From NCBI GenBank assembly GCA_010032545.1, contig RGPT01000010.1, positions 1 through 36,735 of the forward strand: a DNA stretch of 36,735 bases. The letters run 5' to 3'. This DNA is from Alphaproteobacteria bacterium. GTDB lineage: Bacteria > Pseudomonadota > Alphaproteobacteria > Reyranellales > Reyranellaceae. Positions within the stretch are counted from its first letter, which is position 1. Each line of letters opens with the position of its first letter. Shown here piece after piece: positions 7,586-14,478 of the stretch. The notes under the pieces were generated by a model. It was not told the origin of the DNA. It saw only the letters and a list, made by a program, of their open reading frames with translations, and searched no databases. The position numbers and the translations under genes are program-made.

Positions 7586-8557
7586 ATGGCCGAGCCACTT
7601 CCAAGCCGCGCCCTCCCCCAGCGCCTCCTGTGGCGTGGCGATTCCCTGTCGGCCGACGCCGGCAGGATCGCGCTTCCGCGCAACGTCGAGGCCGAGCTCG
7701 ACCGGCTGGTCGTGTCGCTCGACCGCGATCCGGTGCCGCTCCTGCTGCTGCGTCCCGAGGATTTCGACCTCGACGCATCGCGCACGTTCATGCGCGACGT
7801 CAAGCAGAGCCTCGACGGCGGGCCGGGCTTTGCCATCGTCGACCGCCTGCCGGTGGAACGCTGGTCGGAAAGTGGCCTGCGTGCCGTATGGTGGTTGCTC
7901 GCCTCGCTGGTCGCCCGGCCAGTCGCGCAGAAATGGGACGGCACCTCGATCTACGACGTGACCGACCTCGGCCGCCCACCCGGCAATGGCGTGCGCCCCG
8001 ACGTCACCAACGCCGAACAGAACTTCCATGCGGACAACAGCTACAATCTCGTGCCGCCGCACTATGTCGGCCTGCTTTGCGTGCGCACGGCCATGGAAGG
8101 CGGCGTGAGCGGCATCGTGAGCTTTGCCGCCGCCCACGAGGAGATGCGCCAGAGGCATCCCGACCTGTTGCCGCGACTCTACCGGCCCTTCCATTTCGAT
8201 CGCCAGCGCGAGCACGCGCCCGACGACGTCATGACGACCTGGCACCCGATGCTGGAAAGCGAGCAGGACAGACTCATCGCACGCCTGTCCCGCTTCCAGA
8301 TCCGTAACGGCTACAAGCTGGCCGGCGCCGACCTCGACCCGGAAGGGTTGGCCGCCATGGAGGCCTTCGAGGCGATCCTGAATGCGCCGGGCATGGCGGC
8401 GCAGTTCCATTTCGAGCCGGGGCAGATGCAACTGATCGACAACCGAGCGCTCGGCCACAAGCGCACGGGTTTTCGCGACTGGCCGGAACCGGAGCGCAAG
8501 CGCCTGCTGATCCGGCTGTGGCTGCGCGACAGCGGCGGCCGGGCCTACAACGGCTAA
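7586..8557 (+). CDS. TauD/TfdA-family Fe(II)/2-oxoglutarate dioxygenase
   Basis: This is a 323-residue non-heme iron oxygenase that should couple 2-oxoglutarate decarboxylation to substrate hydroxylation. Seen: the H-x-D motif NFHADNSYN (His148, Asp150), the distal His in DNRALGHKRTGF (His291), and the 2-oxoglutarate-binding Arg in RKRLLIRLWL (about Arg310). Thus all metal and cosubstrate ligands are present. The N-terminal ~75 residues (GRIALPRNVEAELDRLV) are the small lead domain common to many TauD-like proteins. The substrate cannot be read from sequence; nothing nearby points to taurine or sulfonates. It sits 10 bases after dapD, a pairing with no obvious metabolic logic. Confidence 0.85.
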   Translation: MAEPLPSRALPQRLLWRGDSLSADAGRIALPRNVEAELDRLVVSLDRDPVPLLLLRPEDFDLDASRTFMRDVKQSLDGGPGFAIVDRLPVERWSESGLRAVWWLLASLVARPVAQKWDGTSIYDVTDLGRPPGNGVRPDVTNAEQNFHADNSYNLVPPHYVGLLCVRTAMEGGVSGIVSFAAAHEEMRQRHPDLLPRLYRPFHFDRQREHAPDDVMTTWHPMLESEQDRLIARLSRFQIRNGYKLAGADLDPEGLAAMEAFEAILNAPGMAAQFHFEPGQMQLIDNRALGHKRTGFRDWPEPERKRLLIRLWLRDSGGRAYNG

Positions 8558-10648: not shown

Positions 10649-11551
10649 ATGGCGGTGGCCTTTGACCTGCAGGGCCATCGTGGCGCCCGCGGTCTGGCGC
10701 CGGAGAACACACTGGCGGCCTTCCGCATGGCGCTCGCGCTGGGTGTCACGACGCTGGAGACCGACCTGGCCGTCACCAAAGACGGCGTCGTGGTGCTTGG
10801 CCACGACCCGCGCCTCAATCCCGACCTGGTGCGCGGGCCCGACGGTCAGTGGATCGCCGCCCCCGGCCCCGCCATCCGGTCGCTGACGCGGGCCGAACTC
10901 GAGCGCTACGACATCGGCCGGATCAATCCGGCAAGCAAGTACGCGTCGCAGTTTCCCCAGCAGAAGCCCGTCGACGGCGAGCGCATCCCGACCCTGGCGG
11001 CGCTCTACGCGATGGCAGGCCCGAACGTCCGCTTCAACATCGAGACCAAGATCGACCCCGCGAAACCGGACGAGACCCTGGATCCCGTGCAGTTCACCCG
11101 GGTGGTGGTGGACGTCATCCGGGCAGCCAACGCCGCAGAACGCACGACGCTGCAATCGTTCGACTGGCGGACGCTGCTCGAAGCCCGGCGTATCGCCCCG
11201 GAGATCAAGACGGCCTGCCTCACCATCGAAAGCAACAACATGGACACGGTACGGCGGACCACAGGCCAGCCTTCGGCCTGGCTCGGTGGACTCGACCTGG
11301 CCGCCGCGGGCGGTTCGCTGCCACGCCTTGTTAAGTCGGCAGGTTGTGCCGTCTGGTCGCCCTTCTGGCGCAACGTGACGGCCGACAGCGTCACGGAAGC
11401 CCATGGCCTTGGCCTGAAGGTGATCCCGTGGACGGTGAATACCGCGGCGGAGATGGCGGCGCTGGTCGACCTGGGCGTCGACGGCCTGATCACCGACTAT
11501 CCCGACCGGGCCCAGCCCGTTCTGGCGGCAAAAGGGCTAAAAGCCCGCTAA
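10649..11551 (+). CDS. Glycerophosphodiester phosphodiesterase family protein
   Basis: GDPD enzymes hydrolyse glycerophosphodiesters to glycerol-3-phosphate and an alcohol. Seen in the 300-residue product: GHRGARGLAPENT (catalytic His10, Arg11), ETDLAVTKDGVVVLGHD (metal ligands Glu37 and Asp39, catalytic His52), the RFNIETKID strand, and C-terminal WTVNTAAEMAALVDLGVDGLITDYP. No signal peptide is present, so a cytosolic enzyme is expected. The start is set at ATG 10649, seven bases after the protease stop; an upstream extension would overlap that gene. It completes the lemA-M48-GDPD operon and may recycle phospholipid headgroups. Confidence 0.92.
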   Translation: MAVAFDLQGHRGARGLAPENTLAAFRMALALGVTTLETDLAVTKDGVVVLGHDPRLNPDLVRGPDGQWIAAPGPAIRSLTRAELERYDIGRINPASKYASQFPQQKPVDGERIPTLAALYAMAGPNVRFNIETKIDPAKPDETLDPVQFTRVVVDVIRAANAAERTTLQSFDWRTLLEARRIAPEIKTACLTIESNNMDTVRRTTGQPSAWLGGLDLAAAGGSLPRLVKSAGCAVWSPFWRNVTADSVTEAHGLGLKVIPWTVNTAAEMAALVDLGVDGLITDYPDRAQPVLAAKGLKAR

Positions 11552-11555
11552 GCGG

Positions 11556-11586
11556 TTGACTCCGCGCCTATCGTGTTCTGTATACA
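11556..11586 (+). promoter_or_regulatory. Predicted promoter and operator of the GntR gene (leaderless mRNA)
   Basis: TTGACT (11556-11561) is followed 17 bases later by TGTATACA (11579-11586), a perfect dyad that overlaps the -10 region. Transcription would begin at about 11591-11593, which is the A of the gntR ATG, and no ribosome site is present. TGTATACA resembles operators of FCD-type GntR regulators, so autorepression is likely. Inferred by eye. Confidence 0.5.
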
Positions 11587-11592
11587 AATCCG

Positions 11593-12264
11593 ATGCGTCC
11601 CTTTGCACCCGAGCCTGACCTGTCCGAGCGAATCCACGACGCCGTGCTCGACGCCATCTGTTCCGGCGAGCTGAGACCGGGCACCCGCATCACCCAGGAA
11701 GAACTGGCCCAGCAGTTCGGCGTGTCGCGCCAGCCCGTGTTGCAAGCGATGATGCTGTTGCGGCGCGAGGGCTTTCTGACCGATGCCGGCCGCAAGGGTG
11801 TGTGCGTGACCCTGCTGGATGTCGAGCACGCCCGCAACCTCTACGTCGTGCGGGCCGCCCTCGACGGCGCGGCGGCACGGCTGGCTGCCGCACACTATAC
11901 GCCGCACCTCGTCCAGCGTGGCCGCTCGCTCCTCGATGTCGGCCGGCGCGCCGTGGCCAGCGGCCATATTCCCACCGTCATCGAAGCCGATATCGACTTC
12001 CATCTCTTCGTCTACGAAGCCTCGGGCAATCCGCTGATCGGCGAAACCGCCCAGCCGCATTGGCAGCATCTGCGCCGGGTCATGGCCGCCGCCCTGAGCC
12101 AGGAAGACCTGCGTGTCAGCGTCTGGGACGAACACGAAGGCATCCTGCGTGCCCTGGAGGCCGGCGAGGCGGGCGAAGCCGAAGCGCTCTGCCGCGGCCA
12201 CGCCGAGCAGATGGCCGACATTCTCACGGGACGCCTGAAAGCCGTGATCTCGAAAGCGGCCTGA
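11593..12264 (+). CDS. GntR family regulator, FCD (FadR-like) subfamily
   Basis: This is a 223-residue regulator with an N-terminal winged helix-turn-helix (about residues 8-75: IHDAVLDAICSGELRPGTRI, EELAQQFGVSRQPVLQAMML, LRREGFL) and a C-terminal helical FCD ligand domain. That domain keeps the metal-binding set: DIDFH (Asp/His), a later His in QPHWQHLRRV, and CRGHAEQM. FCD regulators usually respond to small carboxylic acids or sugar acids. The following oxygenase and SAF-domain dehydrogenase genes are the likely targets, since they lie 26 and about 850 bases downstream in the same direction. No Shine-Dalgarno is seen before the ATG. Confidence 0.9.
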   Translation: MRPFAPEPDLSERIHDAVLDAICSGELRPGTRITQEELAQQFGVSRQPVLQAMMLLRREGFLTDAGRKGVCVTLLDVEHARNLYVVRAALDGAAARLAAAHYTPHLVQRGRSLLDVGRRAVASGHIPTVIEADIDFHLFVYEASGNPLIGETAQPHWQHLRRVMAAALSQEDLRVSVWDEHEGILRALEAGEAGEAEALCRGHAEQMADILTGRLKAVISKAA

Positions 12265-12290
12265 AGAAACGAAGCAAAGGAGGAACCGCC

Positions 12291-13091
12291 ATGAAGCTCA
12301 CACCCGAGCAACTCAAGCAGTTCGACGACGACGGCTACCTGTTCTTTCCGAATTATTTCTCCTCGGAGGAAACGGCGATCCTGAAGTCGGAGATCCCCGG
12401 CGTCTTCGCCCAGCGCCGCGAGGAGAACGTGCGCGAGAAGACCGGCGACGTGGTCCGCACGGCTTTCGCCGTGCATACCTACAATCCGGTGTTCGAGGCG
12501 CTGGTCCACAGCCCGCGCTTCGTCGAGCCAGCCGAGCAGCTGCTCCGGGACAAGACCTACATCCACCAGTTCAAGATCAACGGAAAGGCCGCCTTCGACG
12601 GCGACGTCTGGCAGTGGCACCAGGATTACGGCACCTGGAAAGCCGATGACGGCATGCCCGAGGCGCGCGCCATGAACCTTGCCGTGTTCGTCGACGAGGT
12701 GAACGAATTCAACGGGCCTCTGTATTTCATTCCGAAGAGCCACAAGAAGGGCGCGATCGAGGCCAAGCACGACCTCACCACGACGTCGTATCCGCTATGG
12801 GTGATCGACAACGATGTCATCGCCAAGCTGGTAAAGCAGGGCGGCATCGTGGCGCCCAAGGGCGGCCCGGGCTCGGCGATCTTCTTCCACGGCACGCTGG
12901 TCCATGGCAGCCCGCCCAACATGTCGCCGTGGGACCGCCAGATCATCTATGTGACCTACAATTCCGTGCAGAACGCCATCACCCGGTACAAGCGGCCGGC
13001 CTATATCGCCCATCGCGATTTCACGCCGATCGATGCCTGGGAGGACGATTGCGTGACGCGCGCTGCCCGCCAAAAGGTCGCGGCGGAATAA
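12291..13091 (+). CDS. PhyH-family Fe(II)/2OG dioxygenase, ectoine-hydroxylase-like
   Basis: This 266-residue phytanoyl-CoA dioxygenase family protein carries WQWHQDYGTWKADDGMP, very close to the EctD signature F-x-WHSDFETWHxEDGMP. Iron ligands are His110, Asp112 and His205 (FHGTLVHGSPPNMSPWDR), and the 2-oxoglutarate Arg is 216. Gln93/Lys95 (HQFKIN) also resemble EctD positions. EctD hydroxylates ectoine, and relatives hydroxylate proline or other small zwitterions, so a small amino-acid-like substrate is plausible. No ectABC genes are nearby, so it is not named ectD. It has an excellent AAAGGAGGAA site, and it lies between the GntR gene and a SAF-domain dehydrogenase with tight spacing (26 and 22 bases). 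Confidence 0.88.
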   Translation: MKLTPEQLKQFDDDGYLFFPNYFSSEETAILKSEIPGVFAQRREENVREKTGDVVRTAFAVHTYNPVFEALVHSPRFVEPAEQLLRDKTYIHQFKINGKAAFDGDVWQWHQDYGTWKADDGMPEARAMNLAVFVDEVNEFNGPLYFIPKSHKKGAIEAKHDLTTTSYPLWVIDNDVIAKLVKQGGIVAPKGGPGSAIFFHGTLVHGSPPNMSPWDRQIIYVTYNSVQNAITRYKRPAYIAHRDFTPIDAWEDDCVTRAARQKVAAE

Positions 13092-13113
13092 CAAGTCAAT
13101 TCCGGAGGAAACA

Positions 13114-14478
13114 ATGAGTCTCCATCGCATGCTCATGGCCCGCGCGGCCGAAGCCAATCCCTTGCGCATCGGCGTGATCGGCGCCGGCAAGTTCGGCTCG
13201 ATGTACCTGTCGCAGATCCCGACGACGCCCGGCATCCACCTGTTGGGCATCGCCGACCTCTCGCCGCCGCGCGCGCGCGAGAACCTTGCACGGCTGGGCT
13301 GGAAGCCTGAAGTGACGGGGGCCACGTCGTTCGCCGAGGCGCGCAAGCACGGCAGCACCTATCTCACCGAGGATTGGCGTGCGCTGGTCAGCCATCCCGA
13401 GATCGACATCATCGTCGAATCGACCGGCGATCCGATCGCCGCCGTCGAACATGCATTGGAAGCGTTCAAGCACGGCAAGAGCGTGGTGATGGTCACCGTC
13501 GAGGCCGACGCCTTCTGCGGCCCGCTGCTCGCGCGCCGCGCCGCCCAGGCCGGCGTGATCTACAGCCTCGCCTACGGCGACCAGCCGGCGCTGATCTGCG
13601 AGCTGGTCGACTGGGCCCGCACCTCGGGCTTCGAGGTAACGGCGGCCGGCCGCGGTCACAAGTGGCTGCCGCACTTCGCGCAGTCGACGCCGGAGACGGT
13701 ATGGAAATACTGGGGCCTGAACGAGGAACAGGCCAAGCGCGGCGGCCTCAATCCCAAGATGTTCAATTCCTTCCTCGACGGCTCCAAGCCCGCCATCGAG
13801 AGCACGGCGGTCTCCAACGCCACCGGCCTCACGCCGGCGCCGGACGGCCTCGCCTTCCCGCCGTGTTCCGTAGAAGACCTTCCGTTCGTGATGCGGCCGA
13901 TCTCGGAAGGCGGCCAGCTCCATCACAAGGGCCAGGTCGAGGTGGCCTCGTCGCTCGAGAAGGACGGCCGCGCCATTCCCTACGAGATCCGCAAGGGCGT
14001 GTGGGTCGTGTTCGAGGCCGCCACCGACTACCAGAAGAACTGCTTCGAGGAATACATGCTCTGCACCGACCCCAGCGGCCGGTACTCGGTGATGTACAAG
14101 CGCTGGCACCTGATCGGCCTGGAAGTCGGCATGTCCGTGGCCTCGATCGGTCTGCGCAAGGAACCGACCGGCTGCCCGATCGGCTTCCACGCCGACGTAA
14201 TCGCCACAGCCAAGCGCGACCTCAAGCCCGGCGAGATGCTGGACGGCGAGGGCGGCTACACGGTCTACGGCAAGCTGTTCCCATCGGAGAAGTCGACGAC
14301 GCTCGGCAGCCTGCCGCTCGGCCTCGCTCACAACGCGAAACTCCTAAAGCCGATCAAGGCAGGCCAATCCCTCACCTATGCCGACGTGGCGATGGACGAG
14401 ACGCTGACGGCGGTGAAGATCCGCCGCGAGATGGAGCGGGACTTTGCCCCAGCCGCAGCCAGGATCGCCGCGCAATAG
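13114..14478 (+). CDS. NAD(P)-dependent homoserine-dehydrogenase-like oxidoreductase with C-terminal SAF domain
   Basis: This is a 454-residue protein of the COG4091 type (predicted homoserine dehydrogenase with SAF domain). A Rossmann motif, GVIGAGKFGSMY, is at residues 20-31, and a catalytic-type domain follows with GDQPALICELVDWA and GRGHKWLPHFAQSTPETVW. From about residue 365 a SAF segment reads ATAKRDLKPGEMLDGEGGYT and later LKPIKAGQSLTYADVA. SAF domains also occur in FlgA and sugar-acid dehydratases, so database labels such as FlgA would be wrong here. The reaction is unknown; it may process the product of the upstream oxygenase. GGAGG lies 7 bases before the ATG. An inverted repeat follows the gene. 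Confidence 0.82.
   Translation: MSLHRMLMARAAEANPLRIGVIGAGKFGSMYLSQIPTTPGIHLLGIADLSPPRARENLARLGWKPEVTGATSFAEARKHGSTYLTEDWRALVSHPEIDIIVESTGDPIAAVEHALEAFKHGKSVVMVTVEADAFCGPLLARRAAQAGVIYSLAYGDQPALICELVDWARTSGFEVTAAGRGHKWLPHFAQSTPETVWKYWGLNEEQAKRGGLNPKMFNSFLDGSKPAIESTAVSNATGLTPAPDGLAFPPCSVEDLPFVMRPISEGGQLHHKGQVEVASSLEKDGRAIPYEIRKGVWVVFEAATDYQKNCFEEYMLCTDPSGRYSVMYKRWHLIGLEVGMSVASIGLRKEPTGCPIGFHADVIATAKRDLKPGEMLDGEGGYTVYGKLFPSEKSTTLGSLPLGLAHNAKLLKPIKAGQSLTYADVAMDETLTAVKIRREMERDFAPAAARIAAQ

Follow-up and report, generated by a model that had tools for sequence, protein, structure and literature searches.

The three-gene unit

The window analysed here is a stretch of 36,735 nucleotides from an alphaproteobacterium of the Reyranellaceae (contig RGPT01000010.1 of assembly GCA_010032545.1), in which three co-directional genes lie at positions 11593-14478 of the forward strand. 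Their products are a GntR regulator of the FCD type, a 2-oxoglutarate oxygenase of the PhyH family, and an oxidoreductase with NAD(P)-binding and SAF domains, called DLO in the following. The gene gntR (11593-12264) codes for a GntR/FCD regulator of 223 residues with the Pfam domains FCD (PF07729) and GntR (PF00392), phyH (12291-13091) for an Fe(II)/2-oxoglutarate oxygenase of 266 residues (PhyH, PF05721, 108 bits), and the DLO gene (13114-14478) for a DLO2-type oxidoreductase of 454 residues with DRL_cat (PF21135, 185 bits), NAD_binding_3, and SAF domains. The gaps between the genes are 26 nucleotides (gntR to phyH) and 22 nucleotides (phyH to DLO). Ribosome-binding sites can be read directly on the forward strand at 12277-12283 (AAGGAGG), 7 nucleotides ahead of the phyH ATG, and at 13104-13109 (GGAGGA), 4 nucleotides ahead of the DLO ATG. 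The tight spacing and the good ribosome sites of the last two genes had already been described in an initial annotation made from the sequence of the window, and both are borne out. The next downstream genes are located on the opposite strand and the unit therefore ends at 14478.

The oxygenase and its relatives

The structural model of PhyH, built with a 29-row alignment of relatives (A1), has a pLDDT (predicted local distance difference test) of 92. It superimposes on GriE (VIA Z 36.3, root mean square deviation (rmsd) 1.6, 255 aligned residues, 38% identity), H11 (VIA Z 35.7, rmsd 2.1, 255 aligned residues, 43% identity), and EctD (VIA Z 32.9, rmsd 1.5, 244 aligned residues, 34% identity). 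The enzymes of these top three structural neighbour groups have free amino acids or zwitterions as substrates, and below them the Z score falls from 30 to 24.9. GriE is an L-leucine 5-hydroxylase that works with the dehydrogenase GriF in the griselimycin 4-methylproline route (PMC5676206). H11, a trans-3/4-proline hydroxylase (PDB 7E01, 8H81, and others), is also the best sequence match of PhyH (E-value 1e-66, 45% identity over 248 aligned residues), although the substrate of PhyH may be another than proline.

PhyH contains the residues that characterise the GriE/H11 group, namely the HxD...H iron ligands (H110, D112, and H205), the serine of the His-X-Ser motif (S207), and the 2-oxoglutarate arginine (R216), all invariant in A1, as well as the carboxylate arginine. 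The latter, R235, is invariant in 29 of 29 relatives and aligns with Arg242 of GriE, which forms a salt bridge to the carboxylate of 5-hydroxyleucine (PMC5676206); it is probably also the counterpart of Arg280 in EctD. The mapping assigns Q93, T115, W116, and R235 to the substrate side. By hand mapping the first three, again invariant in all 29 relatives, match Gln127, Thr149, and Trp150, which are among the ligand residues of EctD (PMC6890836). In addition, the family has a motif T-S-Y-P-L-W in the lid region (residues 165-170), which is invariant in A1 but which the printed alignments show in none of GriE, H11, and EctD. Because this invariant motif of its own stands beside the shared residues, PhyH is read as a distinct subfamily of predicted free-amino-acid hydroxylases.

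The initial annotation had called the signature of the oxygenase near-EctD, which is fair as a description. The stretch WQWHQDYGTWKADDGMP in PhyH agrees with the EctD signature F-X-WHSDFETWH-X-EDG-M/L-P at nine of the 15 fixed positions, and PhyH shares the fold and most ligand-binding residues with EctD (PMC2871039). It might thus be supposed that PhyH is an ectoine hydroxylase acting on imported ectoine, given the close relationship (176.3 bits to the EctD model TIGR02408) and the presence of Q93, T115, W116, and probably R235 at the EctD ligand positions. However, the signature is invariant in 71 EctD proteins (PMC2871039) and broken at six of its 15 fixed positions in PhyH, the TIGR02408 score is far under the curated cut-off of 336.5 bits, and in structure EctD is more distant from PhyH than H11 and GriE are. 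We therefore reject the identification as ectoine hydroxylase, which we regard as very improbable. Ectoine synthase was found in none of 41 congeners, but 14 control genomes are equally silent, so that this absence carries little weight.

The oxidoreductase and the DLO2 family

The nearest PDB entries to the DLO protein are 3upl and 3upy, the DXR-II of Brucella, which is its only close solved relative. The DLO model (pLDDT 94.6) matches DXR-II with a VIA Z of 48.7 (rmsd 1.6, 425 aligned residues, 32% identity), compared to a Z of about 18.6 for homoserine dehydrogenase and DXR-I. The score against the NCBIfam homoserine dehydrogenase profile PRK06349 is 26.5 bits, under the cut-off of 205, and denotes a likeness of fold only. 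The superfamily has been divided, with the help of diagnostic residues, into DXR-II and the uncharacterised groups DLO1 and DLO2, the latter having Pro, Ser, or Ala at position 229, Ala or Ser at 121, and a hydrophobic residue at 250 (PMC3847144). Where DXR-II has K191, K193, T229, H250, and G121, the protein of the window has R180, H182, P226, A247, and A110. At the diagnostic positions it thus fits DLO2 (P226, A110, and A247) and not DXR-II, for which Thr229, His250, Lys191, and Lys193 would be expected.

The initial annotation had assumed that COG4091 proteins are without a firmly assigned reaction. This is wrong because one member of the superfamily, the Brucella DXR-II (3UPL/3UPY), makes 2-C-methyl-D-erythritol 4-phosphate. 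For DLO2 itself PMC3847144 (from 2013) gives no assigned reaction, and among the open-licence matches listed, only that paper and PMC10663253, which uses COG4091 in passing, bear on the trio or on the function of DLO2. If the oxidoreductase were a true DXR-II of isoprenoid synthesis, the oxygenase would be an unrelated neighbour. The 32% identity over 425 aligned residues would be in line with this. However, the genome already carries a canonical DXR (440 bits, cut-off 315.7), the diagnostic residues of DXR-II are absent, DLO recurrently accompanies PhyH, and four DLO1/2 proteins did not complement a DXR mutant according to PMC3847144. A DXR-II role is accordingly rejected, and we give it hardly any credence.

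Promoter-like sequence and operator

The gntR product belongs to the GntR/FCD regulators, with scores of 54.1 bits for the GntR helix-turn-helix and 93.9 bits for the FCD ligand domain, both over the Pfam cut-offs (27 and 24.3, respectively). Its gene has no Shine-Dalgarno-type site such as those of phyH and DLO, and its ATG is found 8 nucleotides past a -10-like TGTATA (11579-11584), which suggests a leaderless message. A -35-like hexamer, TTGACT, lies on the forward strand at 11556-11561. The arrangement of TTGAC-N, 17-18 nucleotides, and TGTATA is kept in all 21 readable upstream regions of relatives (window included; 22 regions were given, of which that of L153 is unreadable), and within the genus the gntR start codon follows TGTATA by 5-11 nucleotides. 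A plain sigma-70 consensus scan did not call a promoter at the gntR start; TGTATA does not have the A at position 2 that the scan requires.

The -10-like element is spanned by a palindrome, TTCTGTATACAAAT, at 11576-11589 (genus consensus TTCTGTATACAGAA), and this overlap just ahead of gntR is present in 21 of the 21 readable relatives. The site occurs once in the window and not at all in shuffled sequence. Exactly one TTCTGTATACAGAA site per genome, allowing at most one mismatch, was found in 35 of 41 congeners; the site of the window's own genome has two mismatches and is therefore outside this count. The position of DLO was searched for in all but three of these 35 congeners, and in 28 the site lies 1.3-1.9 kb ahead of DLO and thus at the trio. 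In the others the site is elsewhere (G018), site and DLO are on different contigs (G002 and G007), or DLO gave no match (G026). Related palindromes such as TTGTATACAGTATGCAA are found at the same place in other families, though not in all. The gene gntR is probably leaderless and autoregulated, and with one site per genome the regulator most likely controls only the trio operon, by blocking its promoter. A wider regulon including a transporter was considered and rejected given the single site, which lies elsewhere in G018. The suggestion of the initial annotation that the unit is induced by its substrate through the FCD domain has indirect support only, which comes from a conserved operator over promoter-like sequence and not from a ligand.

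Distribution of the PhyH-DLO pair

Within the genus, 36 of 37 genomes (own genome included) have the DLO protein, whole or partial, at 90% identity or more. Some match was obtained in 106 of 385 genomes of the class and a strong match (E-value of at most 1e-100) in 36 of 398 genomes of the phylum. The genes in the fetched loci were called by a custom codon-usage script. The class set picked by DLO comprises 65 loci and is non-random, consisting of the window, L032-L034, L040, and 60 stretches chosen approximately in order of decreasing similarity; it includes one congener besides the window, and one genome (G145) supplies two loci. In this set, PhyH is encoded directly upstream of DLO on the same strand at 32 loci, and the full trio is found at 16. 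When the loci were instead picked by a genome scan with PhyH (the best 80 of at least 590 candidates), DLO follows directly downstream in 59 and the trio is complete in 39; a contig end cuts four of the 21 loci that have no DLO. The PhyH-DLO gaps are mostly between -6 and 60 nucleotides, and the trio extends to Betaproteobacteria (Variovorax, Ramlibacter, and Rhizobacter), where phyH and DLO often overlap. The unit is thus real and self-contained, and its conservation extends far beyond the strain to many bacteria of soil and water. Two outcomes had been named in advance as speaking against a joint function, a trio restricted to this strain and an oxygenase of a family with a known unrelated substrate. 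Neither was encountered, because the trio is conserved and PhyH groups with GriE, H11, and EctD, which are hydroxylases of free amino acids or zwitterions.

The presence of PhyH is strongly clustered on a tree of 90 DLO proteins, where it requires nine changes, compared to 24.4 when the labels are shuffled, and none of 500 shuffles was as low. Those DLO proteins that have no PhyH fall mostly into one group under midpoint rooting. The tree is a quick search, holds near-copies and identical pairs, and excludes L040 and the named loci L157-L179 (mostly Reyranella). The metagenome bins titled 'Bordetella parapertussis' (L200, L204, L217, L226, and L230) look misnamed, and on the tree the DLO of L204 and L230 groups with environmental Betaproteobacteria.

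Exchanged partners and neighbouring genes

Where DLO is absent beside PhyH, another oxidoreductase is sometimes found. An SDR gene is located directly downstream of phyH in three Pseudomonas loci (L206, L224, and L236) and upstream in L208, an aldehyde dehydrogenase gene follows phyH in L196, and a GMC oxidoreductase gene precedes it in L182. This exchange of partners, as read from the gene content, fits a hydroxylation followed by an oxidation and is the strongest circumstantial support for it. The genes beside DLO encode, in single loci, ProC (L076) and methylmalonate-semialdehyde dehydrogenase (L127), both above the cut-off, threonine dehydratase (L211), and diaminopropionate ammonia-lyase (L198); 3-hydroxyisobutyrate-type dehydrogenases and TRAP transporters are further neighbours. 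Their predicted functions suggest a link with amino acids, aldehydes, and small carboxylates but do not single out one compound. D-glutamate metabolism was considered as a common theme, with a D-glutamate-cyclase-family gene (L033 and L089), an oxoprolinase/hydantoinase-like fusion (L102), and an amidohydrolase (L216 and L235) touching DLO. It was rejected since each of these cases is rare and NCBIfam calls the cyclase-family gene only a 'putative hydro-lyase'.

Several variants of the neighbourhood were seen. In a plasmid variant without PhyH, DLO stands in one row with genes for a 'putative quinol monooxygenase' and an NAD(P)-dependent oxidoreductase (L131, 8001-13530; L132, 8001-10590; L133, 8001-13472). 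The oxidoreductase of L131 is tartronate-semialdehyde-reductase-like, and a TRAP transporter comes next in L131 and L133. The gene c81 beside DLO in L095 and L096 gave no match to the 'quinol monooxygenase' of L131. In L102 (4266-10017) and L104 (2109-4310), the gene directly after DLO encodes a member of another, distant PhyH subfamily, and in L102 the hydantoinase/oxoprolinase-like fusion precedes this pair. In the Stella-type loci L192, L195, and L198, genes for diaminopropionate ammonia-lyase, an N-carbamoyl amino-acid hydrolase, and a nitrilase-like protein stand ahead of PhyH-DLO-SDR; the first two genes of L198 were identified by model, the others by cluster or by eye.

In several families (L082, L084, L107, L086, and L093) DLO, with or without PhyH, is found beside genes that we take to be those of the tricarboxylic acid cycle (sdh, mdh, sucCD, and sucA) and zapE. 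A role in this cycle was considered, but the presumed sdh-zapE-mdh-suc neighbourhood is better read as old synteny. The same position of the pair between the presumed sdh and zapE-mdh-suc genes in several families would be consistent with a unit for metabolite repair, which clears a toxic internal by-product (e.g. norvaline or 2-aminobutyrate) and does not serve the use of an outside nutrient. No transporter seems to be co-regulated, the operator being present once per genome and, wherever this could be checked save in G018, at the trio. The strong conservation of DLO in the genus, at least 90% for full-length copies, also agrees with it. However, the related plasmid loci of DLO lie with TRAP transporters, a Pseudomonas PhyH locus has nearby genes that, from their translations, are presumably for TRAP and AEC-like transporters, and a toxic metabolite has not been identified. 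We consider metabolite repair unlikely.

In the window itself, a GDPD gene (PF03009) ends at 11551 upstream of the trio on the same strand, where genes that we take from their translations to be lemA-like and htpX-like are also located. Three unrelated 2-oxoglutarate oxygenase genes are found inside 10 kb, which are phyH, a gene for a TauD/gamma-butyrobetaine-dioxygenase-like protein directly after a dapD-like gene (7586-8557), and one for an Oxygenase-NA protein (PF09859; 16458-17129).

A proposed two-step oxidation

We lean, with due caution, towards the view that the three genes form a small autoregulated operon whose enzymes oxidise a small amino-acid-like carboxylate in two steps. The gene content, the conservation, the protein families, the operator, and the conserved residues are established, whereas the working of the parts is inferred. 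The GntR/FCD protein would occupy the palindrome that covers the promoter of its own, leaderless gene and hold the operon off until it has bound a small carboxylate. In PhyH, R235, the match of GriE Arg242, would bind the carboxylate of a free amino or imino acid, and the enzyme would hydroxylate an aliphatic carbon while 2-oxoglutarate is converted to succinate. DLO2, whose architecture resembles that of DXR-II and, more remotely, that of homoserine dehydrogenase, would then use NAD(P)+ to oxidise the alcohol so formed. The most likely product is a semialdehyde or ketone, which may cyclise or pass to other dehydrogenases. The proposal of the initial annotation, hydroxylation and subsequent oxidation, is thereby retained in its outline, fitting the conserved trio, the clade of the oxygenase, and the SDR and aldehyde dehydrogenase swaps, while its ectoine-like and no-reaction labels have been corrected.

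By analogy, GriE-GriF-GriH is the nearest worked-out counterpart of the PhyH-DLO pair. It comprises leucine hydroxylase, dehydrogenase, and ring closure, and ProC can replace GriH (PMC5676206). Both systems have an oxygenase of the same clade with the same iron ligands and carboxylate arginine, and in GriE-GriF the hydroxylase is followed by a semialdehyde-making dehydrogenase. In contrast, the dehydrogenase of the unit is a DLO2 and not the zinc-dependent GriF, the unit has a GntR regulator and no peptide synthetase, and its oxygenase has the TSYPLW lid motif that is absent from GriE.

Several observations weigh against this explanation. At 33 of the 65 DLO loci this PhyH is missing (two of the 33 have a different PhyH), so that DLO can work without it, and 12 of the 17 uncut PhyH loci without DLO have no dehydrogenase in adjacent position. 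The gene neighbourhoods differ greatly from locus to locus, and several of the neighbours represent housekeeping synteny (sdh/mdh/suc and pyrG-kdsA-eno-ftsB); single neighbours therefore prove little. Furthermore, the DXR-II reaction is a rearrangement with reduction and not a plain oxidation, so that the DLO step may run in another direction or be of another kind. DLO2 could be a reductoisomerase or oxidoisomerase that moves a carbon group by retro-aldol/aldol chemistry during a redox step on the hydroxylated product of PhyH, as DXR-II does with 1-deoxy-D-xylulose 5-phosphate. The whole-length match to DXR-II, so much closer than that to homoserine dehydrogenase or DXR-I, and the conserved DRL_cat domain would favour such an activity. 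However, the ligand-anchoring K191, K193, and T229 are replaced by R180, H182, and P226, and the partners that take the place of DLO beside PhyH are plain dehydrogenases. An isomerase therefore appears rather improbable to us.

Returning to the two-step oxidation, a more far-reaching version would be that PhyH and DLO2 constitute an undescribed, widespread amino-acid oxidation pathway of Alpha- and Betaproteobacteria, in which an aliphatic amino acid, perhaps a non-protein one, is hydroxylated at a C-H bond and then undergoes a homoserine-dehydrogenase-like oxidation to a semialdehyde. We put this forward tentatively, as a possibility.

Implications for the DLO2 family

Annotations of the DLO1 and DLO2 oxidoreductases go no further than their domains or a likeness to homoserine dehydrogenase, and DLO2 is a family known from sequence alone. 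A recurrent PhyH partner, which is the expected maker of the DLO substrate, makes this open family assayable by coupling the two enzymes, and the single operator with the apparently leaderless gntR offers a ready-made biosensor for ligand discovery. Selective amino-acid hydroxylases of the PhyH clade are in addition useful as biocatalysts. The pair is a testable lead to the first function of a DLO2 protein. If it holds true, the amino-acid oxidation pathway would provide the first reaction for the DLO2 family, and PhyH-DLO2 would stand beside the antibiotic-forming GriE-GriF route as its catabolic or detoxifying twin.

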